A DNA stretch of 64,000 bases from Sulfuricaulis sp. (lineage in GTDB: Bacteria; Pseudomonadota; Gammaproteobacteria; Acidiferrobacterales; Sulfurifustaceae): positions 1 through 64,000 of the forward strand of contig NZ_JANLGY010000011.1 of assembly GCF_024653915.1 (NCBI RefSeq). Direction: 5' to 3'. Below the pieces are notes generated by a model. It searched no databases. It saw nothing but the letters and a program-made list of their open reading frames with translations, and had not been told where the DNA came from. Below are positions 12,279 through 51,157 of the stretch, piece after piece; the stretch's first letter is position 1, and every line of letters starts with the position of its first letter. Both the position numbers and the translations under genes were made by a program.

Positions 12279-13406
<1,128 letters not shown>

Positions 13407-13514: not shown

Positions 13515-13517
13515 TAT

Positions 13518-17116: not shown

Positions 17117-17191
17117 GGTGGCTTCGCGGCGGGTGACCGATCCTCGCCTCGGCCCGGTAAACGGTATTGTCTCGATTGGTTGGGAACAACG

Positions 17192-17968
17192 ATGGCGTGC
17201 GTATGCAATCGCGATGACTGCGTCCTGTGCGAAGGACGGTTGTTCAACGGTCTCGCGTCGAACCAGGTCTGTCGCGTCCGCGGACTGATCGCCTCCGTAT
17301 CTTATCCCGCGCGCACGATGCTGTTTCGTGAGCGCGCGCCCGCCGATCGGCTGTTTATTCTTAAGTCCGGTTGCGTGAAACTGACCACGGCGCTGGCGGA
17401 TGGAAGAGAGCAGATTCTGCGTCTCGCCCTTCCCGGGCAGATGTTCGGTTTCGAGTCCCTCGACGAAAGTTCCTATCCTTATAGCGCGTGCGCATTGACA
17501 GAGGCGAACGTCTGCGCTGTGCGCCACCGGGACATGATGCAGATCCTGGAGAAAGATCCCGGCGTTTCGCTGCGCATGATCCGCATGCTGAACGGCGAGC
17601 TGGAGCGTTCCCGCGCGCTGATCCGGGACCTGGGGCTCAAGTCGTCCACGGAACGCATGGCCTCGTTCATTCTTTCATTGATGCCGCTGCAACACGGTCT
17701 CGCCGGCGATTTTGCATTGCCGCTCACGCGCAAGGAGATTTCCGAGATGCTCGGGCTGACCGTCGAGACGGTGAGCCGCGCGATGACGGGATTCCAGCGC
17801 GCCGGCATCATCCGCGCCTCGCGTGGACGGATTCATGTCTTGGATACGGCCAGGCTGAAGGCGCTGGCCGAAGGCACGCCACCTTGCGCCGCGGTCACAT
17901 GGCACGACGGTGCGGCACCGGCGGAAAGCGGCGTGAGCGCCTATGACTGCAAGACTGGAACGGGTTGA
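17192..17968 (+). CDS. Crp/Fnr family transcriptional regulator with N-terminal cysteines (FNR-like)
   Basis: A 258-residue regulator with a cyclic-nucleotide-binding fold (about residues 25-145) and a C-terminal winged helix (LTRKEISEMLGLTVETVSRAMTGF, the usual FNR recognition region with E-TVSR). The N-terminus MACVCNRDDCVLC has cysteines at 3, 5, 10 and 13, and another cysteine lies in the sensor domain (SACALTEANVCAV). This could bind a [4Fe-4S] cluster as in FNR, although the spacing C-x4-C-x2-C differs from E. coli. The ATG at 17192 was taken because upstream codons lie over the FNR-like box. It is divergent from the nxr-like operon and precedes a PAS-LuxR gene by 85 bp. Confidence 0.82.
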   Translation: MACVCNRDDCVLCEGRLFNGLASNQVCRVRGLIASVSYPARTMLFRERAPADRLFILKSGCVKLTTALADGREQILRLALPGQMFGFESLDESSYPYSACALTEANVCAVRHRDMMQILEKDPGVSLRMIRMLNGELERSRALIRDLGLKSSTERMASFILSLMPLQHGLAGDFALPLTRKEISEMLGLTVETVSRAMTGFQRAGIIRASRGRIHVLDTARLKALAEGTPPCAAVTWHDGAAPAESGVSAYDCKTGTG

Positions 17969-18053
17969 TTTCTTCGGCCGAGGAATCGATGTCCGGAGGG
18001 GTGTGCTCAGAATGTATATGTATGATTAGCGGAAACCCAAAGGGGAGGCCGCC

Positions 18054-18722
18054 GTGGCTGAGCCGATAAATTACGGTCGGGAAGCGGTACCGCCGATCAA
18101 GCCGGCCGAGCAATGGCGTGAGCTCTTCGCCGGCGTCGCCGATGCAGCCTGTGCGGTGGACGCTGAGCAGCGCATACAATGGAGCAACGACGCCTTCGCG
18201 CGCTTGTGCCAGCGCGCGCCGGAACAGATCCACGGGCGGTTCTGTCGCGAGGTGATCTGCGGACACACGCTCGATGGCCAGCGCTTGTGCGGCGGTTCGT
18301 GCCTCGTCAGCGGTCGCTTGGCGCGGCGTGAGCCGGTCGAAAACTTCGACATCGCCATGCCCCAGGCCGGCGGCGTACCGGTGTGGGTCAATGTCGGCAT
18401 CCTTTCCGCCCCGCGGTCGTGGAATCCCGTGACGCATGTTTTCGTGTTGCGCCCGGTCAATTTGTATGCGATCGTCAACCGCCTGCGCGGCGCGGCGCAT
18501 CATGGGAGCGCCGCTGCGCCGGATGATCTGCCGCGCTTGACCCGGCGCGAGCGCGAGATCTTGCGGCTGCTCGCTCAGGGCCACGGCGCGCACGCGATCG
18601 CGCAGCAACTGCATATCAGTGCCCTCACCGTGCGTAACCATATCCGTAATATCTATTCGCACCTCGGCGTCCGCACCCGAGCTGAAGCCATCAGCTTCGC
18701 CTTCCGTCATTGTTTGCTCTGA
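18054..18722 (+). CDS. PAS-LuxR transcriptional regulator with Cys4 motif, paralogue 1
   Basis: A 222-residue regulator with an N-terminal PAS domain (about 20-145) and a C-terminal LuxR/NarL-type helix-turn-helix (RLTRREREILRLLAQG to TVRNHIRNIYSHLGV, about 158-215). The PAS domain carries C64-x4-C69-x9-C79-x3-C83. Two paralogues at 31572-32183 and 35607-36227 have the same spacing, so the four cysteines are likely functional, perhaps for a redox, Fe-S or zinc site. There is no receiver domain and no adjacent kinase, which suggests direct sensing. The GTG start at 18054 follows GGGGAGG. It lies 214 bp upstream of the second molybdoenzyme operon, which it probably controls. Confidence 0.8.
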   Translation: MAEPINYGREAVPPIKPAEQWRELFAGVADAACAVDAEQRIQWSNDAFARLCQRAPEQIHGRFCREVICGHTLDGQRLCGGSCLVSGRLARREPVENFDIAMPQAGGVPVWVNVGILSAPRSWNPVTHVFVLRPVNLYAIVNRLRGAAHHGSAAAPDDLPRLTRREREILRLLAQGHGAHAIAQQLHISALTVRNHIRNIYSHLGVRTRAEAISFAFRHCLL

Positions 18723-18936
18723 GCCCGCCGTCCGCCGCCCCCGCAGCATAGTGTCGCACCAGTCCGGATTGGCCATAAAAATGGTTCATTCGGGTCATTC
18801 TCTTCTGGATATCGCTCGGTCACTATTCCTCCAAAGGGCGCTCCGCCAAAGCCGAATCGGAGTATTCCGCGAGAGCGCCGCCGCCGCATAAGACGACGGC
18901 CGCTTTTCGTAACCACCGAATGACAGGAGGATAACG

Positions 18937-21660
18937 ATGGCCAAATGGTCCCGACGTGACTTCTTGAAGACAGCGGGCGCGACGCTCGCGGCGGTCGCCG
19001 CCAAGGATGTTCTGGCGCTCGATCTGCTCGCGCCGGTGGCCGATCCCCTGGGGGCTTATCCCTACCGCGGCTGGGAGACGCTCTACCGCGACCAGTACAG
19101 TTACGACTACGTCGCGCGCTCCACGCACTCGGTGAACTGCACCGGTTCGTGCACCTGGAAGATATACGTCAAGGACGGCATCGCCTTCAAGGAAGAGCAG
19201 TACGCCGACTATCCGCCGATCAACGCCACGCTGCCCACCTATAACCCGCGCGGGTGCCAGAAGGGCGCGAACTACCTCGAGTACGTCTACGGCCCGCAGC
19301 GCCTGAAATATCCGCTGATCCGCACCGGCGCGCGCGGCGAGGGCAAGTGGCGCCGCGCGAGCTGGGATGAGGCCCTGAGCTACATCGCCTCGCGGATCAC
19401 CGCCAACATCCAGACTTATGGTCCGGACACGATCACTTTCTACTCCGCCATTCCGGCCAAGCATTTCGTCACCTTCGCCGGCGGGGCGCGGCTGGCCAAC
19501 CTGATCGGTGGCGTGATGTGCAGCTTCTACGACTGGTACTGCGACCTGCCGCCCGGCGAGCCGATCACCTGGGGCGAACAGACCGACTCCTGCGAGGCCG
19601 CCGACTGGGTAAACTCGAAGTACCTGATCCTGTGGGGCGCGAACCTGCTCGAGACCCGCATCCCGGACGCGCACTTCATGACCGAGGCGCGCGCGCGTGG
19701 CACGAAGATCGTGGCGATCTTCCCGGAATACAACCCGGTCTCGACCCACTCCGACCTGTTCGTGCCGGTCAAGCCCGGCACCGACGCCGCGCTCGGGATG
19801 GCCATGGCCAACGTGATCGTGAACGAGGGCCGCTACGACGCCGCCTACTGCAAGCAGTTCACCGATTTCCCGTTCCTGGTGCGCACCGACAACAACAAGT
19901 TCCTGCGCGAGGCCGACGTGGTCTCGGGTGGCAGCACCGACAAGTTCTACGTCTGGAACACGGCGACCAACAAGGCGGTGCTGGTGCCCGGCACCTGGGG
20001 CGACAGCAATAAGACCCTCAACCTCGGATCGATCGATCCCGCGCTCGAGGGTACGTGGAACGTCACGACACGGGCCGGCAGCAAACAGGTAACGACGGTG
20101 TTCGCAATGTTGAAGGCGAAGCTCGCGAGCTACTCGCCTTCCGCCATGGCGGGCGTCACCGGCATCGACGCCGGGCTCATCGCCCAGATCGCGCGCGAGT
20201 TCGCCGGCACCAAGCCGGGGCGCATCATCGAGGGCGCCGGCACCAATCATTATTTCCACAACGACCTGAATAACCGCGTGCAGATCCTGTTGGTGGCGCT
20301 GACCGGCAACGTCGGCAAACCCGGCGGCGGCTTCGACCACTACGTCGGCCAGGAGAAGATCTGGCCCGAGCACGGCTTCATCAATCTCGCCTACCCGCTC
20401 ACCACCGCCAAACAACGCTTCCAGAACATGACGCTGTGGACCTACGTCCACGCCGATACCGTCTCGGACGTGGACAGCGTACTGCCGCGGCCGTTGTCGC
20501 AGTACATCACGGAGAGCGTGAACAACGGCTGGATGCCGCTCTACCCGGAGGGCACGCTCACCACCGGCAAGACCCCCAAGGTGCTGATCATCTGGGGCGC
20601 CAACTACGTGAACCAGTCCAAGGGCTACGAGAAGGTCGTCAACACGCTGCTGCCCAAGCTCGATCTCATCGTCGACGTCAACTTTCGCATGGACACCTCG
20701 GCGTTCCACGCCGACGTGGTGCTGCCGGCGGCGAGCTTCTACGAGAAGTGGGACCTCAATTCGACCGACCTGCACAGCTACATCCACCCGTTCACGCCGG
20801 CGATCCCGCCGCTGCACGAGAGCAAGACCGACTGGCAGATCTGGATCGCGCTCGCCCAGGCCCTGCAGGACACGCGCTACAGCTACTACGACGCGAAGTT
20901 CGGCATGCAGCGCGATTTCTCGCGCCTGGTCGCCGACTTCACCATCAACAACGCGATCCGTGACGACAAGGCCGCCTGCCAGTACCTGCTCGACCATGCC
21001 GAGGAAACCGCCGGCGTTACCATGGACCAGATCAATACCCAGCCGCACCGCTTCACCCAGACCAGCGAGGTCTGGACCAGCGACATCAAACCCGGGGTCG
21101 CCTACTACGGTTTCCAGCGCATGACCGAGCACAAGCGACCGCTCAATACCCTCACCGGGCGCCAGCAGTTCTACGTGGACCACGACTGGTTCCTGGAGAT
21201 GGGCGAGCAGTTGCCGGTGTACAAGCCGCCGGTGGATGTCGATGCCTACCCGCTGCGCTGGAACACGCCGCACGGGCGCTGGAGCATCCACTCCACCTGG
21301 CGCGACGCCAAGTTCCAGTTGCGCTTGCAGCGCGGACGGCCGATCGTGTATTTAAGCCCCGGCGAGGCGGCCCGGCGCGGGCTCGTGGATAACGACAAGG
21401 TCGAGGTGTACAACAAGAACGGCAGTTTCGTCGCCCACCTCAACATCTCGCCGCGCCTGCCCGACGGCATGGCCCAGATGTACCACGGCTGGGAGCGTTA
21501 CTTCTTCCAGCAGGGCGGTTGGCAGACGCCGACGACGATCCGCATCAAGCCGACCCAGCTTGTCGGCGGCTACGGCCAGCTCAAATTCAAGCTCAACTAT
21601 TGGGGTCCGACCGGCAACCAGAAGGACACCCGGGTCGAGATCCGCAAGTTCATCGGCTGA
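18937..21660 (+). CDS. Type II DMSO reductase family molybdenum enzyme, catalytic alpha subunit
   Basis: A 907-residue periplasmic molybdoenzyme with a twin-arginine leader (SRRDFLKTAG, residues 5-14). The FS0 site is canonical: H64-x3-C68-x3-C72-x34-C107. The Mo-ligand Asp203 is in FYDWYCDLPPGEP. Length and motifs place it with dimethylsulfide dehydrogenase, chlorate, perchlorate and selenate reductases and ethylbenzene dehydrogenase rather than with cytoplasmic NarG. It differs clearly from the alpha subunit at 13518-17003. The substrate is not determinable here; a sulfur compound, an oxyanion or a hydrocarbon are all possible. It is the first gene of an alpha-beta-gamma-chaperone-moaA operon behind a PAS-LuxR regulator, with a strong AGGAGG site before ATG. 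Confidence 0.87.
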   Translation: MAKWSRRDFLKTAGATLAAVAAKDVLALDLLAPVADPLGAYPYRGWETLYRDQYSYDYVARSTHSVNCTGSCTWKIYVKDGIAFKEEQYADYPPINATLPTYNPRGCQKGANYLEYVYGPQRLKYPLIRTGARGEGKWRRASWDEALSYIASRITANIQTYGPDTITFYSAIPAKHFVTFAGGARLANLIGGVMCSFYDWYCDLPPGEPITWGEQTDSCEAADWVNSKYLILWGANLLETRIPDAHFMTEARARGTKIVAIFPEYNPVSTHSDLFVPVKPGTDAALGMAMANVIVNEGRYDAAYCKQFTDFPFLVRTDNNKFLREADVVSGGSTDKFYVWNTATNKAVLVPGTWGDSNKTLNLGSIDPALEGTWNVTTRAGSKQVTTVFAMLKAKLASYSPSAMAGVTGIDAGLIAQIAREFAGTKPGRIIEGAGTNHYFHNDLNNRVQILLVALTGNVGKPGGGFDHYVGQEKIWPEHGFINLAYPLTTAKQRFQNMTLWTYVHADTVSDVDSVLPRPLSQYITESVNNGWMPLYPEGTLTTGKTPKVLIIWGANYVNQSKGYEKVVNTLLPKLDLIVDVNFRMDTSAFHADVVLPAASFYEKWDLNSTDLHSYIHPFTPAIPPLHESKTDWQIWIALAQALQDTRYSYYDAKFGMQRDFSRLVADFTINNAIRDDKAACQYLLDHAEETAGVTMDQINTQPHRFTQTSEVWTSDIKPGVAYYGFQRMTEHKRPLNTLTGRQQFYVDHDWFLEMGEQLPVYKPPVDVDAYPLRWNTPHGRWSIHSTWRDAKFQLRLQRGRPIVYLSPGEAARRGLVDNDKVEVYNKNGSFVAHLNISPRLPDGMAQMYHGWERYFFQQGGWQTPTTIRIKPTQLVGGYGQLKFKLNYWGPTGNQKDTRVEIRKFIG

Positions 21661-21682
21661 CGCGGCGCGAGGAGGATAAGCG

Positions 21683-22735
21683 ATGGCGACGATACAAAAA
21701 CAGGTCCGGATGGTGTTCGATCTGAACAAGTGCCTCGGATGCCACACCTGCACCATGGCCTGCAAGACCATGTGGACCGACCGTAACGAAGGCCAGATGT
21801 ACATGTACTGGAACAACGTCGAGACCCATCCGGGCGAGGGTTACCCGCGCAAGTGGGAAACCCTGGGCGGAGGCTTCGACGCCAACGGCAATGTGATCCT
21901 GAGCGCGCCGCTGCCGGAAATTGTCGCCAGCTACGGCGCGGCCTGGGAGTATAACTTCGACGCCGTCCTCAAGGCCGGCGGCGGCAGCGCCACCGCGGGT
22001 CAGGTGATCCCGATCCCCTCGCCCGACGGCTCGAATGCCTATGCGAGCAACTGGCAGGAGGACATCGGCGCGGGCACGAGCCCCAGCGACGCGCATTACT
22101 TTTACCTGCCGCGCATCTGCAACCATTGCAGCAACCCCGCGTGCGTCGCGGCCTGCCCGCGCGGCGCGGTGTACAAGCGCGAGGAAGACGGCATCGTCCT
22201 CATCGACCAGAGCCGCTGCCGCGGCTACCGCTACTGCCTCAAGGGCTGCCCGTACAAGAAAATCTACTGGAACCCGGAGGAGAAGAAGTCGCAGAAGTGC
22301 ATTTTCTGCTATCCGCGCATCGAGCAGGGCCAAGGCAACTTCTGCGTGACGCAGTGCGCCGGGCGCATCCGCTGGGTGGGCTACGCCCAGAATACGGCGA
22401 GCAACGTCTACAAGCTGGTGGAGGTGTGGCGGGTGGGGCTGCGTCTGCACCCGGAGTTCGGCACCGAGCCCAACACTTTCTATATTCCACCGCTCTCACC
22501 GCCGACCTTCGCCTCGCCGGGCGGGCCGGTCACGAACACGCGGCGCATTCCGACCGACACGCTCGCCAAGCTGTTCGGCGACAACGCCCAACAGACCCAC
22601 GCCGAGCGCGTGGCGCGCATCGAGGAGATTTTCGACATCATTGAGACCGAGCGCGCCAAGGTGAAAGCCGGCAGCAGCTCGGAACTGATTGACATCCTGG
22701 TCTCTGTATCCGAGACCGATCGCGTCCAGCTTTGA
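21683..22735 (+). CDS. Fe-S beta subunit of the type II molybdoenzyme
   Basis: A 350-residue four-cluster ferredoxin-type subunit. Cysteine groups are CLGCHTCTMACKTMW near residue 16, CNHCSNPACVAACPRG near 147, CRGYRYCLKGCPYKKIYW near 179 and CIFCYPRIEQGQGNFCVTQC near 207. The Trp in the first group (KTMWTD) and the absence of a signal peptide are typical of type II beta subunits exported with a Tat-carrying alpha. It would relay electrons from the Mo site to the haem of the gamma subunit. It starts 22 bp after the alpha gene with an AGGAGG site and ends 13 bp before the gamma gene. Confidence 0.9.
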   Translation: MATIQKQVRMVFDLNKCLGCHTCTMACKTMWTDRNEGQMYMYWNNVETHPGEGYPRKWETLGGGFDANGNVILSAPLPEIVASYGAAWEYNFDAVLKAGGGSATAGQVIPIPSPDGSNAYASNWQEDIGAGTSPSDAHYFYLPRICNHCSNPACVAACPRGAVYKREEDGIVLIDQSRCRGYRYCLKGCPYKKIYWNPEEKKSQKCIFCYPRIEQGQGNFCVTQCAGRIRWVGYAQNTASNVYKLVEVWRVGLRLHPEFGTEPNTFYIPPLSPPTFASPGGPVTNTRRIPTDTLAKLFGDNAQQTHAERVARIEEIFDIIETERAKVKAGSSSELIDILVSVSETDRVQL

Positions 22736-22748
22736 GGGGGAGGAGGCC

Positions 22749-23525
22749 ATGATGACAGCGAGAAGGTTGCGGGATTTCTCCAGGGAATGCGCCGTGATCG
22801 TCCTGGCGGTGATGTTGTGCTTGTCGCCGGCGACTCAGGCGGCTGGGCCCGGCGGTGGGGGCAGAGGAGGGGGCGGTGGCACGACGGTTACCGCCGCCTA
22901 TGTGCCCGGCGCCAACGGACTTAGCCCCTCCGATTCTTCGTGGGGCGCGGCGTCGGCGGCGACGGTGACGCTGGTGCGCTACATCGATTATGTCAGCAAC
23001 GCCGATACCAACGACACCATGTGCATGATGCTGGGCAGCGCCATCAACCGCGCGGTCACGGTCAAGGCGGTGCACAACGGCAGCGACATCTTCTTCCGCT
23101 ACGAGTGGAGCGACAGCACGGCGGATTCCACGGTGAGCGACACGCCGAAGTTCGCCGATGCCTTCGCCATGGAGATTCCGTACAGCGGCTCGAGCGGCAC
23201 CAATCTTGCCATGGGCACGCAGAGCGGGCCGGTGAACATCGTCTTCTGGCGCGCGGACCTGTCGCAACCGCAGAACATCGTCGCCGGCGGCATCGGCACG
23301 CCGCAGCCGAGCCCGGATGCGCAGAACCTGATCCACTACCAGAGCTGGGGCAGCGGCCGGTGGACAGTGATCGTGAGTCGCCCTTTGACCGGAGCCTCGG
23401 TCAACCAGGTAACACTCGCCCGCGGCGCAAGTTACCGCGCGGCGTTCGCCAACTGGAACGGTTCGGCCCTGGATCGCAACGGGCGCAAGGCCATCTCCGG
23501 CTGGGGCACGTTGGCGATTCAGTGA
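22749..23525 (+). CDS. Heme-binding gamma subunit of the type II molybdoenzyme
   Basis: A 258-residue exported protein with a long leader (charged start MMTARRLRDFSRE, then a hydrophobic stretch ending TQAAG) followed by a glycine-rich linker. The mature part is an EB_dh domain: TLVRYIDYV, an Asn/Asp-rich loop with CMMLG, KAVHNGSDIFFRYEWSDS, and VNIVFWRADL. Family members carry one haem b with Met and Lys ligands and hand electrons to or from a soluble cytochrome c. Starts at ATG 22749 or the next codon 22752; GGGGGAGGAGG precedes both. The gene order alpha-beta-gamma-chaperone equals ebdABCD. Confidence 0.82.
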   Translation: MMTARRLRDFSRECAVIVLAVMLCLSPATQAAGPGGGGRGGGGGTTVTAAYVPGANGLSPSDSSWGAASAATVTLVRYIDYVSNADTNDTMCMMLGSAINRAVTVKAVHNGSDIFFRYEWSDSTADSTVSDTPKFADAFAMEIPYSGSSGTNLAMGTQSGPVNIVFWRADLSQPQNIVAGGIGTPQPSPDAQNLIHYQSWGSGRWTVIVSRPLTGASVNQVTLARGASYRAAFANWNGSALDRNGRKAISGWGTLAIQ

Positions 23526-23550
23526 CACCCCGCCACGCGGAGGCAATATC

Positions 23551-24354
23551 ATGGACATGAGCGAGCACGCAAAGGCGGCGGTCGCCGATCCGGACACCCG
23601 CAGCCGCGCCTACCGCCTGCTGGCTGAGCCGTTTCGCTATCCCACCGTCGCCTTCTTCGAGCGGTTGCGGGACGGAGCCTATGCGGCGGAACTGCGCGAG
23701 GCGTTGGCGGAGCTTGCGCATGCACGCTTAAGCGAAGCCGAATGGCAGGCGCTTGCCGACGGTCTGTCGCGGGCGCTCGCAGGATGCGCCTTCGAGGACT
23801 ATGAGTCGCTCTACATCACAACCTTCGATGCGGGGGCCCCGCAGCCGCCCTGCCCGCCGTACGAAGGTTCTTACCGCGACGGCGTGCCGAAGGCCAAGAT
23901 CCTGCTCCATCTGGCGGGCTTCTACAAGCATTTCGGCCTGCGCATGAGCACGGAGGAAGGCAAGCGCGAGCTGCCGGATCACATCGCCGCCGAGCTGGAG
24001 TTCATGCACTTCCTCGCCTTCAAGGAGGCGCAGGCGCGCGAGGTGGACGACGGCGCGCTGTTGCAAGGCTACGTGCTGGCGCAGCGCGATTTCCTGAGCC
24101 GCCACCTTTGCCGCTGGATGCCGCGCTTCGTGCAGGCGCTGAAAGCGGCACGCCCCGCCAGTGCTTTCGCGCTGTTGGCGGAGGCGGCGCATGATTTCTT
24201 CCAGAAGGATCTCGCGCTGGTGCAGGGTTATCTCAAGGACATGGGAATAGCGGAACCGCCCGCGCCACCGACGCGCGAGACGATCCCGATCGTGGCGCAA
24301 GACGACACCGCACCGCCCGGCGCTGAGCCGGACGCGGGCCATGTTGATCGATAG
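23551..24354 (+). CDS. TorD/DmsD family chaperone for the type II molybdoenzyme
   Basis: A 267-residue cytoplasmic helical protein. Signature regions are RAYRLLAEPFRYP near the start, YESLYITTFDAG, PPCPPYEGSY and LPDHIAAELEFMHFLAFKEAQA, which form the conserved core of TorD/DmsD proteins. It should bind the twin-arginine leader of the alpha subunit and hold it open for bis-MGD insertion. It is not closely alike in sequence to the chaperone at 10660-11406 apart from the family core, in line with each operon having its own. Its 3' end overlaps moaA by 14 bp, so the two are probably translationally coupled. Confidence 0.87.
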   Translation: MDMSEHAKAAVADPDTRSRAYRLLAEPFRYPTVAFFERLRDGAYAAELREALAELAHARLSEAEWQALADGLSRALAGCAFEDYESLYITTFDAGAPQPPCPPYEGSYRDGVPKAKILLHLAGFYKHFGLRMSTEEGKRELPDHIAAELEFMHFLAFKEAQAREVDDGALLQGYVLAQRDFLSRHLCRWMPRFVQALKAARPASAFALLAEAAHDFFQKDLALVQGYLKDMGIAEPPAPPTRETIPIVAQDDTAPPGAEPDAGHVDR

Positions 24355-25330
24355 TTTCGGCCGGTGTATCGACTACCTGCGGGTATCCGTCACCGACCGC
24401 TGCAACTACCGTTGTTTCTACTGCATGCCGCGGACCGGCGTGCGCTTCGCCGCTGCCGCCGATCTCCTCACCAGCGAAGAACTGGCCCGACTGATACGCC
24501 TGTTCGCGGAGCTGGGCGTGCACCGCGTGCGGCTGACGGGCGGCGAGCCGCTGGTGCGTCGCGATCTCGCCGGGCTCGCCGCCATGATCGGCCGCCTGCC
24601 CGACATCGTTGACCTGTCACTCTCTACCAACGGGCAGTTGCTCGCGCGCCACGCGCACGCGCTCAAACAGGCGGGCGTGACGCGCGTCAATATCTCGCTC
24701 GATTCGCTCGACCCCAAGGTCTTCGCGCGCATCGCCTGCGGCGGCGACCTGCGCGCGGTGTTGCGCGGGATTGAGGCGGCGCTCGATGCCGGCATGGCGC
24801 CGGTGAAACTCAACATGGTGGTGATGAGGGGAATCAACGACCAGGAAATCGAGACGATGCTCGAGTTCGCGGTCGCACACGGCGTGGACCTGCGCTACAT
24901 CGAAACCATGCCCGTGGGACCGCAAGCCGCCGACGGCATGGCCCATCATTATCCGGCCGCGCTGATTCTTGAGCGCCTGCGCCGGCACGCCGGCGCCGAG
25001 CTCGTTCCGGCGAAGGGCGGCCGGGGCGCGGGTCCGGCGCGGTATTATCAGATCGGTTCCGGCCCGGTGAGGGTGGGCGTGATCTCCGCGGTGTCGCGCC
25101 ATTTCTGCGCGGGCTGCAACCGCGTGCGGCTGACCGCCTCCGGTGAGCTCGTGCTCTGCCTGGGACACAATGATCGGGTTTCTCTCCGCGAGGCGCTGCG
25201 CGGCGGATGTTCAGACGAAACGCTGAAGACGATGATTCGTGCCGCGGTGATGAACAAACCCGAGCGGCATGACTTTCAGAAAACGGGTGGAGAGATTGTC
25301 GCCATTCCGATGTCCGCGCTTGGCGGATGA
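24341..25330 (+). CDS. moaA: GTP 3',8-cyclase MoaA
   Basis: A 329-residue radical SAM enzyme that converts GTP to (8S)-3',8-cyclo-7,8-dihydroguanosine 5'-triphosphate, the first step of molybdopterin synthesis. The radical SAM cluster is C21-x3-C25-x2-C28 (CNYRCFYC). The second, C-terminal cluster is formed by CAGCNRVRLTASGELVLC near residue 250. VRLTGGEPLVRRDL is the usual SAM-binding glycine motif. The C-terminal MNKPERHDF ending lacks the doubled glycine of many MoaA proteins but keeps the related GGE segment. It is the last gene of the type II molybdoenzyme operon, which ties cofactor synthesis to enzyme expression. Confidence 0.95.
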   Translation: MLIDSFGRCIDYLRVSVTDRCNYRCFYCMPRTGVRFAAAADLLTSEELARLIRLFAELGVHRVRLTGGEPLVRRDLAGLAAMIGRLPDIVDLSLSTNGQLLARHAHALKQAGVTRVNISLDSLDPKVFARIACGGDLRAVLRGIEAALDAGMAPVKLNMVVMRGINDQEIETMLEFAVAHGVDLRYIETMPVGPQAADGMAHHYPAALILERLRRHAGAELVPAKGGRGAGPARYYQIGSGPVRVGVISAVSRHFCAGCNRVRLTASGELVLCLGHNDRVSLREALRGGCSDETLKTMIRAAVMNKPERHDFQKTGGEIVAIPMSALGG

Positions 25331-31571: not shown

Positions 31572-32183
31572 ATGACCGACCTGGGTGAAATTTTTTCCCG
31601 CACGTCAGACGCCGTTTTCGCGATCGATGGCGCCTGCCGGATTGTTTATCGGAACGAAATTTTCGCCGATCTTTTCCAATGCCCGGCATCCGAGGGGTCG
31701 GGCCGCCCCTGTTATGAAGTCGTGTGTGGCAAGACGCTGGGTGGCCAGGTTTTTTGCAGCCCTGACTGTCCGGTCGGAAAGTCCCTCACGAATGATCGTC
31801 CGGTCGAGAATTTTGATCTGATCATCTCTCCTGCCCACGGGGATTCAGCGTGGGTCAGCGTAGGCTCGTCCCCATTGCCGAAAACATTCCATCGCGCCGT
31901 CGCGGTCTTCCTGATCCGCCCCGTCAACGTCATGCATGCCCTCAATCGTCTCGCGCATGGCGGACCCTCCAAGGAAAACGACGAAACGGCACACCGGCTC
32001 ACGCCACGCGAGCGGCAAATCCTCAGGCTGCTTGCCGAGGGCCGCAGTACCAAGGAGCTCGCCGATATTCTGCACATCAGCCACGTCACGGTCCGTAACC
32101 ACATCCATAATATTTTTGAAAAACTGGACATCCACAGCCGGGCGGAAGCGGTGAGCTTTGCCTACCGCAACAGTCTCCTGTAG
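31572..32183 (+). CDS. PAS-LuxR transcriptional regulator with Cys4 motif, paralogue 2
   Basis: A 203-residue regulator with an N-terminal PAS domain starting at once (MTDLGEIFSRTSDAVFAID) and a C-terminal LuxR-type helix-turn-helix (RLTPRERQILRLLAEGRSTK to NHIHNIFEKLDIHSRAEAV). The cysteines are C47, C52, C62 and C66 (C-x4-C-x9-C-x3-C), identical in position to paralogue 3. The DNA-binding helix THVTVRNHIHN-like region is very similar among the three paralogues. It stands 215 bp upstream of the cytochrome-cupredoxin-propeller gene, with two palindromes in the gap that are good candidates for its operators. Confidence 0.82.
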   Translation: MTDLGEIFSRTSDAVFAIDGACRIVYRNEIFADLFQCPASEGSGRPCYEVVCGKTLGGQVFCSPDCPVGKSLTNDRPVENFDLIISPAHGDSAWVSVGSSPLPKTFHRAVAVFLIRPVNVMHALNRLAHGGPSKENDETAHRLTPRERQILRLLAEGRSTKELADILHISHVTVRNHIHNIFEKLDIHSRAEAVSFAYRNSLL

Positions 32184-32258: not shown

Positions 32259-32274
32259 TGATGCAAATGCATCA
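32259..32274. promoter_or_regulatory. Palindrome TGATGCA-N2-TGCATCA, copy 1
   Basis: Perfect 7-bp arms TGATGCA and TGCATCA around AA. Its first base is 140 bp before the start of the gene at 32399. An identical-arm palindrome lies 139 bp before the start of the gene at 36456. Identity of arms and distance suggests an operator shared by the two haem-protein genes. Confidence 0.65.
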
Positions 32275-32336
32275 AGCAAAATGACGCATTCGAATCATTT
32301 TTTCCGACTTTGATCGTAAATATATTGTTGCACGCG

Positions 32337-32353
32337 TGCGGCAATTTGCCGCA
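32337..32353. promoter_or_regulatory. Palindrome TGCGGCA-N3-TGCCGCA, copy 1
   Basis: Perfect 7-bp arms TGCGGCA and TGCCGCA around ATT, 46 bp before the start codon at 32399. The same palindrome with spacer TTT is at 35523-35539. A degenerate version (AGCGGCA-TTC-TGTCGCA) occurs at 50319-50335, upstream of the CuA oxidase/NO reductase operon. Confidence 0.62.
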
Positions 32354-32398
32354 CAGCGGTACCACCACAAATATCAAATATATATATAAGGAGGAGTC

Positions 32399-34522
32399 AT
32401 GTTCCACAATTATTCTATAAAGAGTGGGTGGGAGGCTGCGCTGCTTACAGTGGCCATCCTGCTCGCATCGCCGCTGGCGCAGGCCAGTGCCATTCAATCC
32501 CAACCGCCGGAAAAAATCTTCGCGGCCGCCTGTTCCACCTGTCACGGATCGGGCGGCCGTGGCGGAGACTCATGGGTCAATGACGTCAATGCCCCACGCA
32601 TCGCGGGCCTTAGGATGATCAGCGACACCGCGGCCAAAAACATGATCCGCAACGGATCGGACAACCGCGGCATGCCGGGTTTCGGGCCGGCGGAAATTAC
32701 CGACACCGAGCTCAACAGTCTCGTCAGTTGGCTGCGCAATAACTGCGGCGGCATGATGGGCAGCTGCCCGGCGCCCGCGCGTCCGTCGGGCACGGAAGTG
32801 AAGGTGGACATCCTGGATGCCGATCCGTGGTACACCGACAAGGGCGTGGACAACGCCAACGACCCCTATGACGACACACGGCGTGTGGTGCTCGGCGCCA
32901 ACCAGTACCTCACCGTGACCAACACCGGCAAGACCTGGCACACCATGACCAACTCCGCCGTCGGCAAGGACTCGGGCTTCATCGGCTACGCCGGCAATCT
33001 CGGCAGCGGCACCGGTTATTACTACGCGGATCAATCCACGGGGCTCGCGCCCGGCTGTGTACGCTATCTCTGCAAGCTGCATCCGTATATGCAGTTCGAG
33101 GCCTGCACTGCGGGCAATACGCCGGCGGAAATCACCAAGGCCTCGAAGGTCGCCATCGCCAAACCGGCCGTGGCGGGCAGCGGTGAGGTCTGGGTGAACG
33201 CCCAGAGCCAGGAGGAAAGCGCCTCCGACACGGTGGACGGCGCGATGCAGGTCATCGACTCCGCGAACTGGAACATCAAGAACTACATCGCCAACGTCGG
33301 CAACAACCCGCACAATGCCTGGCCCGGAAAGGGCAGCAACGGCACATCCTACGTGCTCACGGCCAACTGGCACGACAACACCTCGACCGTGATCAACGCC
33401 AGCACCAAGGCGGTGGTGCGCACCGCCGCCACCGGCGCGGCGTCGGCGCACGTGCAGGTATCGCCCGGCGCGGCCGAACGCTGGTTCGTCACCATCATGG
33501 GCGGCGTGGCCATGCAGGAAGTGGACGTGGCCAAGTTCGCGGCGGGCCAAAGCGGCGCCCTCGTGGGCAACCCCATCCGCGGCCAGTTCTCGCCGCACGG
33601 CATCTGGTTCTGCGACGATGGCGAGCATTATCTGACCGCCAACACGCTGGCCAACTCCGTGTCGCTCTACTCCGTGAGCCAGGCGAAACAGCAGTCCTTC
33701 GCCTCGACCGGCGGCGTCTCGCCGCTCGCGGCGAGCGTGTTCAACGGCTACGGCACCGGCGGCTGCGTGCGCGCTTACACCAACAACGCTGGGACCGCGT
33801 CGGTGTCGGTGTACGACATCAACCCGACGGGCGGTACGATCACGCGCAACAGCAGCGTGATTCCGGCCGCGTTGCGGGATGCGAGCGGCAACCTGAAGCT
33901 CCGGGACACCTCGATCTATCCGGTGCGCTGGGTGCATATGCCGATCCAGACGCCGGTGAGCCCGCCTGACGCCACCACGCACGGCCGCTTCATGGTCACC
34001 GCGAACAAGGCGTCGTTCAACGTCGCGGTCACGGCGCTCAGTTCCGCGGGCAATCCGACGGCGGTTTACACCTTCCCGGCGGGCCTTGGAGCGCACGGCG
34101 TGACCTACGGCCGCAAGGCGTTGTGCGACAATGGCGTTCCCAGTTCCATCTGCTACTACGCCTACGTGACCAATACCTTCGAGGATTACATCAGCGTCTA
34201 TGACCTCGAAAAAGTGGCAAGCGCGGGCGCGCCAGGCTCGGCCGGCGAGCAGGTGAGCCTGCAGGGTTACGGCGCCAAGGCGTTGTGCAGCGGCCAGAGC
34301 TCGTGCAACGTGCCGATCACGACCTTCTGCCCCGACTGCCGCAGCGGGGCGCACGTGGGCGACGTGCCGCTCAAGACGACCACGACCGGCAAGTACACCT
34401 ATCTGAAGGAAGAGGTGTGGCTCGACCCGCTGGCCACGGAGCTGCCGCTGGATCTGGACCTCAAGATCAACACCGGCGCGCAAGGGATCATGGTCGCTCC
34501 CGCGCCCAAGCCTTGGCCGTAA
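32399..34522 (+). CDS. Cytochrome c-cupredoxin-beta-propeller fusion protein, unknown function
   Basis: A 707-residue periplasmic protein with an unusual domain order. A signal peptide ends near residue 30 (PLAQASA). Residues 38-115 are a class I cytochrome c with C45-S-T-C48-H49 and Met92 (RGMPGFG) as likely sixth ligand. Residues 133-240 look like a cupredoxin with type 1 copper ligands H181, C225, H228 and M231 (KTWHTMTN; CKLHPYM). Residues 260-707 are repetitive and propeller-like, with histidines at 305, 325, 351, 400, 410, 513, 528, 566 and 652 in loops such as SPHG, GAHG and THGRF. This faintly recalls the His-rich propeller of N2O reductase, but the CuA motif and NosZ signatures are absent. 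It may be a multicopper or haem oxidoreductase, or an electron-relay protein. It follows PAS-LuxR paralogue 2 and precedes a hairpin terminator. Confidence 0.72.
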   Translation: MFHNYSIKSGWEAALLTVAILLASPLAQASAIQSQPPEKIFAAACSTCHGSGGRGGDSWVNDVNAPRIAGLRMISDTAAKNMIRNGSDNRGMPGFGPAEITDTELNSLVSWLRNNCGGMMGSCPAPARPSGTEVKVDILDADPWYTDKGVDNANDPYDDTRRVVLGANQYLTVTNTGKTWHTMTNSAVGKDSGFIGYAGNLGSGTGYYYADQSTGLAPGCVRYLCKLHPYMQFEACTAGNTPAEITKASKVAIAKPAVAGSGEVWVNAQSQEESASDTVDGAMQVIDSANWNIKNYIANVGNNPHNAWPGKGSNGTSYVLTANWHDNTSTVINASTKAVVRTAATGAASAHVQVSPGAAERWFVTIMGGVAMQEVDVAKFAAGQSGALVGNPIRGQFSPHGIWFCDDGEHYLTANTLANSVSLYSVSQAKQQSFASTGGVSPLAASVFNGYGTGGCVRAYTNNAGTASVSVYDINPTGGTITRNSSVIPAALRDASGNLKLRDTSIYPVRWVHMPIQTPVSPPDATTHGRFMVTANKASFNVAVTALSSAGNPTAVYTFPAGLGAHGVTYGRKALCDNGVPSSICYYAYVTNTFEDYISVYDLEKVASAGAPGSAGEQVSLQGYGAKALCSGQSSCNVPITTFCPDCRSGAHVGDVPLKTTTTGKYTYLKEEVWLDPLATELPLDLDLKINTGAQGIMVAPAPKPWP

Positions 34523-34545: not shown

Positions 34546-34580
34546 AAAGCAGGGGGCAGCGAAACGCTGCCCCCTGCTTT
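34546..34580. terminator. Hairpin terminator or processing site after the fusion-protein gene
   Basis: A perfect 15-bp stem, AAAGCAGGGGGCAGC and GCTGCCCCCTGCTTT, around loop GAAAC. The stem ends in TTT but has no longer U-tract. It lies 24 bp past the stop and 8 bp before the next start, so it may reduce rather than stop transcription into the SurA-like gene. Confidence 0.7.
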
Positions 34581-34587: not shown

Positions 34588-35253
34588 ATGAAAAGGCTTC
34601 TCCTCTTGTTCGCCCTGTTGTTGCCGGGTGTTGCCGCCGCGGAAACGACACCGGCGACGCTTCCGGAAATCGTGGCGCGCATCAACGACGTTGCAGTCAC
34701 GCGCGCCCAATTCGAAACGCGCCTGGCGCAAAGCCGCTCGATGAACCCTTCGCTGTTCGATGCCATGGGCGCGGAAGAAAAGGCGCACGCCATGGTGCGC
34801 GTGCTGAACGGCATGATCCAGCGCGAGCTCGAAGTCCGGGAAGCACACCGCCGCGGTATTACCGTTGCCGAGGAGGAGATCGCGCAACGGCTGCGCGAGA
34901 TGGAGGCCTCTTACGCCAACAAAGGCGGGCTCAAACAGGCCTTCGCCGAATTCAAGATCACGCCGGAGCAGTGGAAGGAAGAAACGCGGCGCAATCTGCT
35001 GATCGAACGGCTCGAGGCGATCGAGTCGGCCGCCATGCCGGTTACCGATGAAGAAGTCCGCGAGGAATTCCTGCGTAACTTCTGGAAGGAAAAAACGCCG
35101 CCCTCGTCGCGGGAGTTAGCCGAACACCGCGAACATATGCGCATGGTGATCCGGCAGCGGCGCTGGCCCGAGCAGCGCAAAAGCTGGATGCAGTCGCTGG
35201 CGGACGTCGCCCGCCTCTGGCGCTGGACGCCCGCCGCCGGCGGCGCACCCTAG
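34588..35253 (+). CDS. SurA N-terminal-like periplasmic chaperone without PPIase domain
   Basis: A 221-residue exported protein with signal peptide MKRLLLLFALLLPGVAAAE. The mature part begins VARINDVAVTRAQFETRLAQS, the typical SurA/PpiC N-terminal opening, and continues with helices LNGMIQRELEVREAHRRGITV and EEEIAQRLREMEASYANKGG. There is no parvulin domain, so it would act only as a chaperone. Its place just after the cytochrome-cupredoxin-propeller gene suggests it helps fold that large periplasmic protein. The last residues overlap, tail to tail, with a decayed membrane-protein fragment on the other strand. Confidence 0.78.
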   Translation: MKRLLLLFALLLPGVAAAETTPATLPEIVARINDVAVTRAQFETRLAQSRSMNPSLFDAMGAEEKAHAMVRVLNGMIQRELEVREAHRRGITVAEEEIAQRLREMEASYANKGGLKQAFAEFKITPEQWKEETRRNLLIERLEAIESAAMPVTDEEVREEFLRNFWKEKTPPSSRELAEHREHMRMVIRQRRWPEQRKSWMQSLADVARLWRWTPAAGGAP

Positions 35254-35522: not shown

Positions 35523-35539
35523 TGCGGCATTTTGCCGCA
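35523..35539. promoter_or_regulatory. Palindrome TGCGGCA-N3-TGCCGCA, copy 2
   Basis: Perfect arms TGCGGCA and TGCCGCA around TTT, 67 bp before the start of PAS-LuxR paralogue 3. The arms equal those at 32337-32353. A candidate binding site for one of the PAS-LuxR proteins, perhaps autoregulatory. Confidence 0.6.
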
Positions 35540-35606: not shown

Positions 35607-36227
35607 ATGCAGGCATTACAGGATATCTTTTCCAGAACGTGCGACGCCGTTTTCGCCATTGACGATGCCTGCCGCATCGTTTACCAAAATGGAACGTTTG
35701 CCGAAATTTTTCTGCACGGCGATTCGGCGCCGTTCCCGCGCAAATGCTACGAAGTAGTTTGCGGCCGCAACCCGGAGGGAGAAGATTTCTGTTGCTCGCA
35801 TTGCCCCCTCGGGAAATCCCCGCTGGAGGGCCGGCCCGTTGAGAATTTCGATCTGCGAGTCCGCTTGAGCGATGGGAAAACGATCTTGCTGGATGTGGGA
35901 GTCATGCCCGTTTCCAGAACGTTCGATAATGTCGCCGCGATTTTCATGCTCCGGCCCGTTGACCCCTCTTGCTCTCTTTTCCACCCGGCTGACGACAGGG
36001 AACAAACAAACGGCATCTCACCCGATATCGAGCACGGGCTTACTTGCCGTGAACGGCAGGTTTTGAAACTGCTCGCCGAGGGCCTCGACGCCAAGGCCTT
36101 GGCGAACGCGCTGCACATCAGTCATGCCACCGCCCGGAATCATATCCAGCACATCTATGCAAAGCTGGGTATTCACAACCGGGCCGAGGCGGTGAGTTAC
36201 ATTTTTCGTAACGGCTTGATGCGTTAA
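35607..36227 (+). CDS. PAS-LuxR transcriptional regulator with Cys4 motif, paralogue 3
   Basis: A 206-residue regulator closely alike to paralogue 2: QDIFSRTCDAVFAIDDACRI at the N-terminus, then C47, C52, C62 and C66 in the same C-x4-C-x9-C-x3-C spacing (with an extra C63), then a LuxR-type helix-turn-helix from GLTCRERQVLKLLAEG to HIQHIYAKLGIHNRAEAV. There is no receiver domain. It precedes the triheme cd1-like gene by 228 bp. The high similarity to paralogue 2 and the parallel placement point to duplication of a regulator plus target module. Confidence 0.82.
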   Translation: MQALQDIFSRTCDAVFAIDDACRIVYQNGTFAEIFLHGDSAPFPRKCYEVVCGRNPEGEDFCCSHCPLGKSPLEGRPVENFDLRVRLSDGKTILLDVGVMPVSRTFDNVAAIFMLRPVDPSCSLFHPADDREQTNGISPDIEHGLTCRERQVLKLLAEGLDAKALANALHISHATARNHIQHIYAKLGIHNRAEAVSYIFRNGLMR

Positions 36228-36316: not shown

Positions 36317-36332
36317 TGATGCATGTGCATCA
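36317..36332. promoter_or_regulatory. Palindrome TGATGCA-N2-TGCATCA, copy 2
   Basis: Arms TGATGCA and TGCATCA around TG; the symmetry extends outward to AA/TT. It begins 139 bp before the start codon at 36456, against 140 bp for copy 1 and the gene at 32399. A TTGACA-like hexamer follows about 14 bp further on. Confidence 0.65.
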
Positions 36333-36455: not shown

Positions 36456-38612
36456 ATGAAGTTTCTGAAAATTCCTGTTCGGTTTGTTGCGGTTATACTG
36501 CTGTCACCCCTGATGATCGGCAGTGCCTGGGCCATGGGTGGTGGGGGCGGAGGTGGAGGCGGCGGCGGTGGGGGTGGTGATCCGGTCGCCGGCGAAGCGA
36601 TTTTCCAGGGCGTCTGTTTCGCCTGTCACGGAACCGATGCCGGCGGCCGCTTCGTGCGCAAGAGCATCCGGGACGCCTCGGCCAACAGGATCAGCGGCAT
36701 GATCCGGATGCGGCCGGAGATGCAGTTCCTGTCATATCTGACCAGCACCGACATCGCCAATGTCGCCGCCTACCTGGCCGTCCTTCCCGAGACCGGCAAC
36801 CCGGAACGGCTTTCCGGCAATGGCAATTCAACCAATGGCGAGGCTGCGTTCAGGAAAAACTGCACCGGCTGCCACTCCATGGGCACCAGCGCCCGGGTCG
36901 GGCCCGATCTGCTGAATGTGGTCCAGAGAAGAAGGCCCGTATGGATCCAGGCCTTCACCGTCGAACCCAAGGCCATGATCGGCCATGGCGCGTTCGGCAC
37001 CGGTCTGGAAAATTATCCCTGGTGGATGTCCGACACCAACCTGTCCGATTACACCGCCCTCGACATCTGGGCCTATCTCAATCTGCAGCAGGTGCGCGTC
37101 GAGACCCCACCAGTCACGCTGACGGCCGCGGAATTCGAGGACACCAAGAATCTCTACTTCAACCGCTGCGCCGGCTGCCACGGCCTGTATCGCAATGGCG
37201 CCACCGGGCCCAACATCGGCGAGGTCAGGGCCAAGGTGATCGGCACCGACGGCTTGGGCGCGATGATGCGCCACGGCACGCCGGGCGGCATGCCCAACTT
37301 CGGCACCGCGGGCATTCTCACCGACGACCAGATCACCAAGATGGCCGCCTACCTGCAACTGCCGCCGCCGGAAGCGCCGCCGCTGCCGATGGCGGAGATT
37401 CAGGCGAGCTGGCAGTTGCTGGTTCCGGTGGCCGATCGTCCCACGGCGCCGCAAACCACGCGCGACTGGCAGAACTACTTCGGCACGGTGCTGCGGGACG
37501 CGGGCCAGATCGCGATTTTCGACGGCGACACCCGCGAGGAGATCGTGCGCGTGGATGTCGGCTTCGCCGTGCACATCCTGCGCTCGTCGAAGTCGGGACG
37601 CTACTTCTACGCCATCGGCCGCGACGGGCTGGTCAGCATGATTGACCTGTGGGCGAGCACGCCGAACCTGGTGGCGAAGGTGAAGGGCTGTCACGACGCC
37701 CGCAGCGTGGACGGCAGCAAGTTCACGGGCTACGAGGACAAATACCTTATCGAGGGTTGTTACTGGCCGCCGCAGTACGTCGTGTACGACGGCCTGACGC
37801 TGGAGCCGCTGGCGCGCAACGACATCCCCCTGACCAGCATCACCGGGGAGACCCTGCAGGAGGTGCGGGTGGCGGCGATCGTGGCCTCGGAGTTCGAGCC
37901 GGTGTGGGTGATCAACCAGAAGGAATCCGGTTACGTCGGCATCGTGGACTATTCGCAGGCGGGCTTCCCACTGGCGGCGAACATCGCCACCGAGAAATAC
38001 CTGCACGACGGCGGCTGGGATCACACCAGGCGCTACTTCATGACGGCGGCCAACGCCAGCAACAAGATGGTGATCGTGGATACCGCCACGCGCAGCTTCG
38101 TGACGAGCTTCATCACCGGCAGCGTGCCGCATCCGGGCCGCGGCGCCAACTGGTACGATCCGGAGTATGGCTGGGTCAACGCCACGCCGCATATCGGCAG
38201 TCCCCTGCTCGCGGTGTACGGGGCGGACCCGGTGGGCCGGCCGGACGTTGCCTGGACCGTGGTGCGCAACATCACGCTGCCAGCCGCGGGTTCGCTGTTC
38301 CTCAAGACGCACCCGAACTCTCCCTGGGTGCTGGTTGACATGACCCTGAGCTCGACCAACGACAAGCAGGTCTGTGCCATCGCCAAGGCGACGGGCACGG
38401 TGGATCGCTGCTTCGACGTGGCGACCGCCGGCAAGGCGGTGCACCAGGAGTTCAACAGGGACGGCAGCCAGGTCTGGATATCGGACTGGGCCGGCGAAGG
38501 CGGCGGACAGGTCATCCTGGACGGCACCACGCTGGCGGAGATCGCGCGGATTCCGCTCCCCGCGACCACCGGCAAGTTCAACGTCTATAACACGTCGCAC
38601 GACATCTACTGA
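36456..38612 (+). CDS. Cytochrome cd1 nitrite reductase-like protein with three c-type haem sites
   Basis: A 718-residue periplasmic protein. A signal peptide ends near residue 26 and is followed by 14 consecutive glycines (28-41). Three CxxCH sites follow: C54-C57-H58, C136-C139-H140 and C238-C241-H242. The third domain aligns with the single c domain of ordinary NirS (NRCAGCHG, GGMPNFGT). The rest is a d1-type eight-bladed propeller: H373 in FAVHILRSS is the expected axial d1 ligand, and the catalytic pair H517 (LHDGGWD) and H559 (PHPGRGAN) is kept at the family spacing of 42. It is thus likely able to reduce nitrite to NO, or a related reaction, with extra haems as electron relay. Ordinary NirS is about 560-600 residues. 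A canonical nirS also lies at the window end, so this is a second, unusual form. Confidence 0.85.
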   Translation: MKFLKIPVRFVAVILLSPLMIGSAWAMGGGGGGGGGGGGGGDPVAGEAIFQGVCFACHGTDAGGRFVRKSIRDASANRISGMIRMRPEMQFLSYLTSTDIANVAAYLAVLPETGNPERLSGNGNSTNGEAAFRKNCTGCHSMGTSARVGPDLLNVVQRRRPVWIQAFTVEPKAMIGHGAFGTGLENYPWWMSDTNLSDYTALDIWAYLNLQQVRVETPPVTLTAAEFEDTKNLYFNRCAGCHGLYRNGATGPNIGEVRAKVIGTDGLGAMMRHGTPGGMPNFGTAGILTDDQITKMAAYLQLPPPEAPPLPMAEIQASWQLLVPVADRPTAPQTTRDWQNYFGTVLRDAGQIAIFDGDTREEIVRVDVGFAVHILRSSKSGRYFYAIGRDGLVSMIDLWASTPNLVAKVKGCHDARSVDGSKFTGYEDKYLIEGCYWPPQYVVYDGLTLEPLARNDIPLTSITGETLQEVRVAAIVASEFEPVWVINQKESGYVGIVDYSQAGFPLAANIATEKYLHDGGWDHTRRYFMTAANASNKMVIVDTATRSFVTSFITGSVPHPGRGANWYDPEYGWVNATPHIGSPLLAVYGADPVGRPDVAWTVVRNITLPAAGSLFLKTHPNSPWVLVDMTLSSTNDKQVCAIAKATGTVDRCFDVATAGKAVHQEFNRDGSQVWISDWAGEGGGQVILDGTTLAEIARIPLPATTGKFNVYNTSHDIY

Positions 38613-46605: not shown

Positions 46606-47844
46606 CTAGCCGGGGTTTCCGTCTGCGCGCGGCCGCAGGTACATCGGCGCATACAGCCGGGCCCATAACAGGAAGGCCAGCAGCCAAACAACCGCCGCCA
46701 GTACATTCAGTATGCTGCTGGCAGCCGCGGGCGCGAACTCCGCGGCGATGCGCAATGCCGCGACCAGGTTGATGCCGAACAACACGCGCCAGGTGAGATC
46801 GTCGGCTTCGAGCGCGCGGCCGGAGTGGCCGAGCGTGACGCGCGAGGCCATGGCCACGATCATGCCGCCGAAGAATCCGATGCCGAGCGCGTGCAGCGGC
46901 GCGCGCGCGAAATAATCCGTGCCGGTGACGAGCAGCGTCAGGCTCTGCGCGGTGAACAGCGCCATGCCGATGCCGAGCCACAGGAAGGCGATGTGCAGCA
47001 TCGCCAGCAGGCGCGCGTGAAAGCTGCGGCGGAATTGCCACAACCACGAGTGATGCAGCGCCGCCGCCGCCAGCGGCGCGTCCGCGAGAAAGCGCCACGC
47101 CGGCAATCCGGCGAGCTCGAAGGCCGCGTGCGCCACGACGCACACCACCATCAGCGGCGGTGTCCACGCCGGGCGCACCATCAGGTAATTGATGAGCGCG
47201 CTCTGGGTGAAAAACGGAATCATGCGATGCGCTACCAGGAACACCACCGGCATCAGAAACAGCCATAGGCCGATCTCGCGCGCCAACGTAAACGCCAGCG
47301 GCGACTGGATCAGGACGCCCGTGAGGAAACACAGGATACCGACTGCGCCGGCGGCGAGCGCGAGATTGAGCAGGCGCTCATGCGGTCCGTGTTTGGGTGC
47401 CTGGCGGAAAACCGTGAACAATGCATGGAGCGCCAACGCCCATCCCAGCAGTTGCAGGACCAGTGCCAGCGCCACGAGAAGGAGAGAAAAGAACAGGCCC
47501 GCGTAAAACAAAACCATGCCTGTAACGAGAAAAAAGAAAACGGCGACGTATCGCGAGGCCGCTATTACCGGGCCGCCCATCCAGCGCGGGTAAACGGTGA
47601 ACAGGAATCCGAAAATAAAATACGGAAACAATCCGAACAGCATGAGAAACACATGCGCCGATATGGAGGGCAGCACGAGTCGCAGGGGTTCTGACCAGCC
47701 TGCGCGCGCGAGTAGCTCGGCGAGCCAGAACAACATGATCAGTACGGTCTGGAGCGCGCCGGGGAGAAACATCATCCGGTGCGGCGCGGCGGTAAAGCTG
47801 TCCCAGCGAGAGGAGGCGGAATGATTAGTGTTGTCGGGAGACAT
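46606..47844 (-). CDS. nnrS: NnrS family haem-copper membrane protein
   Basis: A 412-residue inner-membrane protein with about 12 helices. NnrS marks include the start APHRMMFLPGALQTVLIML, the FPYFIFGFLFTVYPRW segment, RMIPFFTQ and the late MIVAMASRVTLGHSGR motif. NnrS proteins contain haem and copper and protect against nitrosative stress; their genes are classical targets of NO-responsive regulators. A perfect FNR/DNR-type box is 52 bp upstream of the start. It is followed on the same strand by the hemerythrin operon, which has its own box. Confidence 0.9.
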   Translation of the reverse strand: MSPDNTNHSASSRWDSFTAAPHRMMFLPGALQTVLIMLFWLAELLARAGWSEPLRLVLPSISAHVFLMLFGLFPYFIFGFLFTVYPRWMGGPVIAASRYVAVFFFLVTGMVLFYAGLFFSLLLVALALVLQLLGWALALHALFTVFRQAPKHGPHERLLNLALAAGAVGILCFLTGVLIQSPLAFTLAREIGLWLFLMPVVFLVAHRMIPFFTQSALINYLMVRPAWTPPLMVVCVVAHAAFELAGLPAWRFLADAPLAAAALHHSWLWQFRRSFHARLLAMLHIAFLWLGIGMALFTAQSLTLLVTGTDYFARAPLHALGIGFFGGMIVAMASRVTLGHSGRALEADDLTWRVLFGINLVAALRIAAEFAPAAASSILNVLAAVVWLLAFLLWARLYAPMYLRPRADGNPG

Positions 47845-51144: not shown

Positions 51145-51157
51145 GGAGGAGAGGCCC

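Follow-up and report, generated by a model that had tools for sequence, protein, structure and literature searches.

A gene of a Sulfuricaulis sp. encodes a secreted protein in which haem c, a type 1 copper-type cupredoxin and a seven-bladed propeller form a single chain, and the predicted ligands for haem and type 1 copper are conserved in its family. This fusion protein is not a singleton but a rare haem c branch of a wide and little-described family, and possibly represents a copper enzyme of nitrogen cycling that has so far been overlooked. Its reading frame is open for 707 aa behind a strong Shine-Dalgarno sequence (AAGGAGGAGTC-ATG), and its GC content is 64.9% compared with 60.8% for the window, meaning the whole 64,000-nucleotide stretch of DNA that was analysed (Table 1). 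A sequence-only reading of this DNA had proposed the three modules in this order, and domain matches, AlphaFold2 and Foldseek bear it out.

Table 1. Features of the fusion gene and its neighbourhood, in window coordinates
Feature	Position	Strand	Basis or remark
PAS-LuxR regulator 1, 203 aa, Cys-rich PAS	31572..32183	+	
Palindrome TGATGCAAATGCATCA	32259..32274	+	Conserved in L031; motif also upstream of 36456
Inverted repeat GTGCGGCAATTTGCCGCAC	32336..32354	+	Core TGCGGCAnnnTGCCGCA also at 35523-35539
Haem c, cupredoxin and seven-bladed His-propeller fusion protein, 707 aa	32399..34522	+	Open reading frame, domain and fold matches
Sec-type signal peptide, residues ~1-30, ...LAQASA	32399..32488	+	Sequence inspection
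Cytochrome c domain, residues 36-113; C45/C48/H49, distal M92	32504..32737	+	Pfam PF13442, E=6e-13
Cupredoxin domain, residues 130-255; H181, C225, H228, M231, amicyanin-like loop	32786..33163	+	Family profile, model
YncE/YVTN-type seven-bladed propeller	33164..34519	+	AlphaFold2, Foldseek, alignment
Perfect 16-bp hairpin between fusion gene and SurA-like gene	34546..34580	+	
SurA-like periplasmic chaperone	34588..35253	+	PF13624 (SurA_N_3), E=8e-14; syntenic in L031
PAS-LuxR regulator 2, 49% identical to regulator 1	35607..36227	+	
Palindrome TGATGCATGTGCATCA	36317..36332	+	
Tri-haem c and cytochrome d1-type propeller protein (NirS-like)	36456..38612	+	PF02239, E=2e-92; three CxxCH

Module architecture and conserved ligands

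The Pfam Cytochrome_CBB3 domain (PF13442) was matched at residues 36-112, and the CSTCH motif and Met92 pointed out from the sequence are both present, with C45, C48, H49 and M92 conserved in all six haem c-type proteins; the CxxCH plus distal Met are those of a class I cytochrome c. No cupredoxin was called in a Pfam search of the fusion protein itself, and Copper-bind (PF00127) was matched by 4 of 24 relatives. A profile of 42 relatives matched amicyanin, pseudoazurin and copper nitrite reductase (E 1e-6 to 1e-5), and also the archaeal YVTN surface protein 1l0q, hydrazine synthase beta and, weakly, NosZ. Residues 130-255, modelled separately at modest confidence (pLDDT 67), gave matches to Cupredoxin_1 proteins, the Nitrosopumilus multicopper oxidase 9cck, amicyanin and pseudoazurin, in agreement with the cupredoxin fold expected at residues 133-240. 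The loop C225-K-L-H228-P-Y-M231 has the amicyanin spacing C-x2-H-x2-M, which makes this a one-Cys type 1 site and not CuA; with H181 it completes the amicyanin-like pattern (H ... C-x2-H-x2-M in a cupredoxin fold), and copper binding is predicted. The earlier assignment of a single-Cys type 1 cupredoxin is therefore supported by the four residues, the family profile and the model alike.

AlphaFold2, run on the family alignment of 42 sequences (six of them with haem c), gave a pTM of 0.82, with the propeller mostly at pLDDT 85-95 and haem c poorly modelled, probably because just six rows contain it. Counting strands on this model yields seven four-stranded blades, with A strands starting near residues 304, 349, 399, 445, 515, 565 and 652 and residues 263-298 closing the last blade. 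Foldseek matched the model to 1l0q, cytochrome cd1, YncE and hydrazine synthase beta, and Pfam gave a weak YncE propeller match at 277-475 (PF21783, below cut-off). Fold and repeat signature are those of a YncE/YVTN seven-bladed propeller, so that the propeller suspected from sequence is upheld by both programs.

Nine propeller histidines had been put forward as a possible metal site, all of which exist, although the alignment retains only some of them. Four (H305, H351, H400 and H566) are His in 41-42 of the 42 aligned sequences, from bacteria and archaea; H652 is branch-specific, being His in all five haem c members that cover the region and I/V/L in the other 36; and the remaining four are variable, H325 being His in 4/6 haem c members and H410, H513 and H528 varying across the family. 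The equivalent innermost-strand position in the seven blades is occupied by H305, H351, H400, L443, I516, H566 and H652, blades 4 and 5 carrying an aliphatic residue (L/I/V) throughout the alignment except for one threonine. Strictly conserved across bacteria and archaea are also N306, W308, W324, D326 and Q517. In the AlphaFold2 model H305, H351, H400, H566 and H652 begin innermost A strands, and the His-bearing blades, 6-7-1-2-3, follow one another without a gap around the ring; one common pocket is therefore plausible. Strand register supports a one-sided pocket of conserved histidines at one end of the propeller channel, so the idea of a single cavity fits the conserved residues by model topology and is not extended to the variable ones. 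The PHG and AHG loops elaborate on a position of the usual YVTN/YncE repeat. Whether the propeller histidines of the fusion protein bind metal is perhaps an even bet.

Family distribution and the exchange of haem c for a multicopper oxidase

A genome scan recovered 212 relatives among 304 candidate stretches, the best 79 loci of which were kept, and these relatives are found mainly in ammonia- and methane-oxidising microbes. The haem c form comprises the fusion protein and five others (L031 to L035). One of these, L031 (80% identity), lies on a 6.3 kb contig (L031:1-6327) binned as Candidatus Uhrbacteria with a 0.9 Mb genome; as this contig is syntenic with the window, it is probably misbinned. 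L032 belongs to an Armatimonadota MAG and L033 to the Nitrospirota MAG nzgw272, while the more distant L034 and L035 are on Methylococcales contigs. In a propeller-only tree the six haem c proteins form one clade (support 99/94, with a program warning that long branches meet). Relatives lacking CxxCH occur in Nitrosomonas, Nitrosospira, Nitrosovibrio, methanotrophs, Nitrosocaldus, Nitrososphaeraceae, Nitrospira and a few others. The full-length fusion protein was absent from 56 other genomes of its order, and a plasmid search returned nothing beyond distant propellers.

In most other family members a multicopper oxidase, fused or neighbouring, occupies the place of haem c. Among the best 79 of the 212 loci it is fused in 42, immediately upstream in 19 (six of these were listed as downstream with negative gaps, read here as a slight stop-to-stop overlap of frames) and absent in 18, namely five haem c loci, three at contig ends, five in Nitrosocaldaceae and five stand-alone. 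This swap of modules argues that the cupredoxin-propeller core does its own redox chemistry. The fused oxidase of Nitrosomonas europaea (L066:5377-9173) lacks HxHG in domain 1 and has YHDE instead of YHDH, and that fusion is immediately preceded by another oxidase-like gene. The methanotroph two-domain multicopper oxidase has no close counterpart in the Sulfuricaulis genome, just a distant 631-aa protein. AMO/pMMO subunit B (PF04744) was found in neither this genome nor those of L031-L034, and was found with L035 and N. europaea. Searches of an open-access literature library turned up no description of the cupredoxin-propeller core or of its multicopper oxidase fusion.

Gene neighbourhood and regulation

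Both the fusion gene and the tri-haem cd1-type gene (36456) are preceded by a PAS-LuxR paralogue, and the exact sequence TGATGCAnnTGCATCA lies upstream of each, the copy at the fusion gene being conserved in L031. Three exact copies occur genome-wide; the third is inside clpS, a gene identified by eye, and was judged a chance occurrence. A second dyad, TGCGGCAnnnTGCCGCA, precedes the fusion gene and the regulator 2 gene. The twin PAS-LuxR genes and the common TGATGCAnnTGCATCA make co-regulation of the fusion and tri-haem cd1-type genes likely, and we infer that the PAS-LuxR proteins would bind the TGATGCAnnTGCATCA and TGCGGCAnnnTGCCGCA sites. The regulator that the sequence-only reading placed before the fusion gene is thus in position, and its connection with the gene gains support from the operator-like palindrome common to both loci. 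A SurA-like gene does follow, as had been noted, but not quite directly: a hairpin intervenes, and co-transcription with the chaperone is consequently not established. Regulators 1 and 2 have a common Cys-rich stretch, CYEVVCG..FC..CP.GKS, which could be a metal or Fe-S cluster site and make them redox or NO sensors. The tri-haem cd1-type product (718 aa) resembles NirS but carries two additional haem c motifs.

Respiratory and N-oxide genes abound in the window. Two operons of the type II DMSO reductase family lie on opposite strands at 10660-25330, with alpha, beta and chaperone genes and, in one, a haem b gamma subunit; one of the alpha subunits (1180 aa) scores well below the family cut-off. 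An NnrS gene (46609-47844) is followed at 50608-52852 by haem-copper oxidase subunits, a CuA-type subunit II of 178 aa and a COX1 of 564 aa, both far below oxidase cut-offs, which possibly form an NO reductase-type haem-copper oxidase; SCO-like, CtaA-like and NnrS genes are nearby. Further along, dsrAB (58354-60786) precedes a NosR-like gene at 61096 (stretch 58354-62880), which adjoins a single-haem cytochrome cd1 nitrite reductase-like (nirS-like) gene that starts at 63021 and runs off the window. This NosR-like gene neighbours nirS in a genome without NosZ; a NosR homologue adjoining nirS is typical of NirI. The L031 copy is flanked by SirB2-like and NnrS-like frames, and a SirB2-like frame is also present at 30890 in the window. 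A relative on a Methylocystis plasmid clusters with a multicopper oxidase, a free YncE, SirB2, NnrS and a frame that we read from its translation as a NorB-like haem-copper oxidase.

Proposed function and comparison with known systems

Our leading interpretation, at a probability of about 0.38, is that the fusion protein is a periplasmic copper-dependent oxidoreductase whose substrate is a small N-oxide, perhaps NO. H305, H351, H400 and H566, with H652 in the haem c branch, would hold a metal, probably copper, at which a small nitrogen oxide, most likely NO, would be converted. Electrons would pass from type 1 Cu to haem c and the respiratory chain, in either direction, and in the sister branch, where a multicopper oxidase replaces the haem, the same core would exchange electrons with the oxidase. 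The protein is probably co-produced with the tri-haem cd1-type protein under the twin PAS-LuxR regulators, within a gene island of denitrification type. Here we infer metal binding, substrate and direction, the last two being guesses from gene context and taxonomic range. The interpretation draws on the strict conservation of four histidines at A-strand starts while blades 4 and 5 keep L/I/V, on the swap of haem c and multicopper oxidase with haem c confined to a single clade, on the range among ammonia and methane oxidisers with relatives beside NnrS, SirB2 and the NorB-like oxidase, and on the window context (nirS, NosR-like, NnrS and cd1-type genes) with its common operator-like site. Counted against it are a free YncE carrying three of the four histidines and the position of some relatives beside copper-homeostasis genes. 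That it stands for a new class of propeller copper oxidoreductases, acting on NO or another small N-oxide at a metal site of four to five His, with type 1 Cu wired to haem c or a multicopper oxidase, seems distinctly unlikely.

Those same copper-homeostasis genes lead to another explanation, somewhat doubtful in our view, in which propeller and cupredoxin bind or oxidise periplasmic Cu(I), for homeostasis or for metallation of a copper enzyme, and the oxidase or haem c takes the electron. The multicopper oxidase partner and the copper-rich hosts agree with such a role, one member weakly matches the zinc metallochaperone AztD, a Deinococcus YncE-like relative adjoins CueP, a Cu-ATPase and other copper-binding proteins, and another relative (L106) adjoins a P-type metal ATPase. 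However, no copper exporter or known copper sensor was recognised beside the window gene or L031-L033, whose surroundings are those of N-oxide respiration, and a dedicated haem c would be unusual for a chaperone. The free YncE propeller of the Methylocystis plasmid cluster (L029:3977-4951) has His aligned to H305, H351 and H566 and aligns better with the family than does L-NosZ, so the His set may mark a non-enzymatic YncE group. It is conceivable, if unlikely, that haem c and type 1 Cu form an electron relay and that the propeller is a metal-free scaffold or binding face, as is usual in YncE types and hydrazine synthase beta. The nearest propellers are indeed YncE/YVTN, and hydrazine synthase beta ranks high in both the profile and the fold comparison, yet four blade-specific His together with N306, W308, W324, D326 and Q517 seem beyond the needs of a scaffold.

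A divergent nitrous oxide reductase similar to clade III is highly improbable, even though NosZ of clades I-III is absent from the genome, where the NosZ I/II models match nothing but a CuA oxidase subunit. Proteins with a NosZ-like cupredoxin and a lactonase-type propeller have been described from the Nitrospirota class of L033, with their activity called untested (PMC11033732). L133:862-2640, from the same class, scores 659 bits against NF052460 (L-NosZ clade III; cut-off 700, E 3e-198), carries a C-terminal CuA motif and is, by these sequence features, a clade III L-NosZ. It resembles the fusion protein in that L-NosZ combines a cupredoxin with a seven-bladed lactonase/YVTN-like propeller, with His at matching innermost-strand starts, and is secreted in a denitrification context. 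However, its CuA is C-terminal (CxxxCxxxHxxM) and it has no haem, whereas the fusion protein has N-terminal haem c, a single-Cys cupredoxin and fewer His. The fusion protein does not match NF052460 at E 0.1, a model weakly matched by 31/42 relatives (best 1.5e-19) and by generic propellers too, and no nosDFYL was recognised in the window. In profile-profile comparison (hhalign) the family aligned with L-NosZ at E 1.5e-9 and with the free Methylocystis YncE at E 7.5e-19; being closer to the latter, it lies near L-NosZ within the propeller superfamily but does not belong to it. NosZ clades I/II (TIGR04244/TIGR04246, not among its matches) likewise have propeller-hub His and a cupredoxin and differ in domain order. 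NosZ of all clades requires a C-terminal two-Cys CuA, and the seven CuZ histidines come from six of the seven blades (PMC11573801), compared with four invariant and one branch-specific His at blade starts here. The sequence-only reading had set NosZ aside, rightly, given one Cys, an N-terminal cupredoxin and no family match. A search with PF18764 (nos_propeller) missed even its controls and carries no weight either way.

Should the propeller bind metal, CuZ would be joined by a further His-propeller copper centre, and nitrogen oxide metabolism would gain a candidate, open to testing, for one missing step. If the class of NO oxidoreductases is real, its oxidase-linked forms would be candidates for catalysing the still unassigned conversion of NO to nitrite in ammonia oxidation. 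The cupredoxin-propeller core spans ammonia-oxidising bacteria and archaea, one Nitrospira genome and methanotrophs, and the haem c branch offers a protein of a single chain that lends itself to purification and spectroscopic study.

Among other known systems, NirS and NirN share an N-terminal cytochrome c with a propeller, and a Foldseek match, but the fusion protein has an inserted cupredoxin, seven blades by strand count and not eight, and no match to the cd1 domain PF02239, which its neighbour at 36456-38612 does match. NirK has a two-cupredoxin fold (TIGR02376, unmatched here), and the fusion protein has one cupredoxin. Hydrazine synthase beta and YncE have a similar YVTN propeller, without cupredoxin or haem c in the chain, whereas the Nitrosopumilus maritimus multicopper oxidase (PDB 9cck) has a related C-terminal cupredoxin and neither propeller nor haem. 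The oxidase-cupredoxin-YncE proteins of Nitrosomonas, Nitrosospira, Methylocystis and Nitrososphaeraceae have a homologous core (~24-32% identity) with the same invariant ligands, and differ in that a two-domain multicopper oxidase, fused or encoded by the adjacent gene, replaces haem c.
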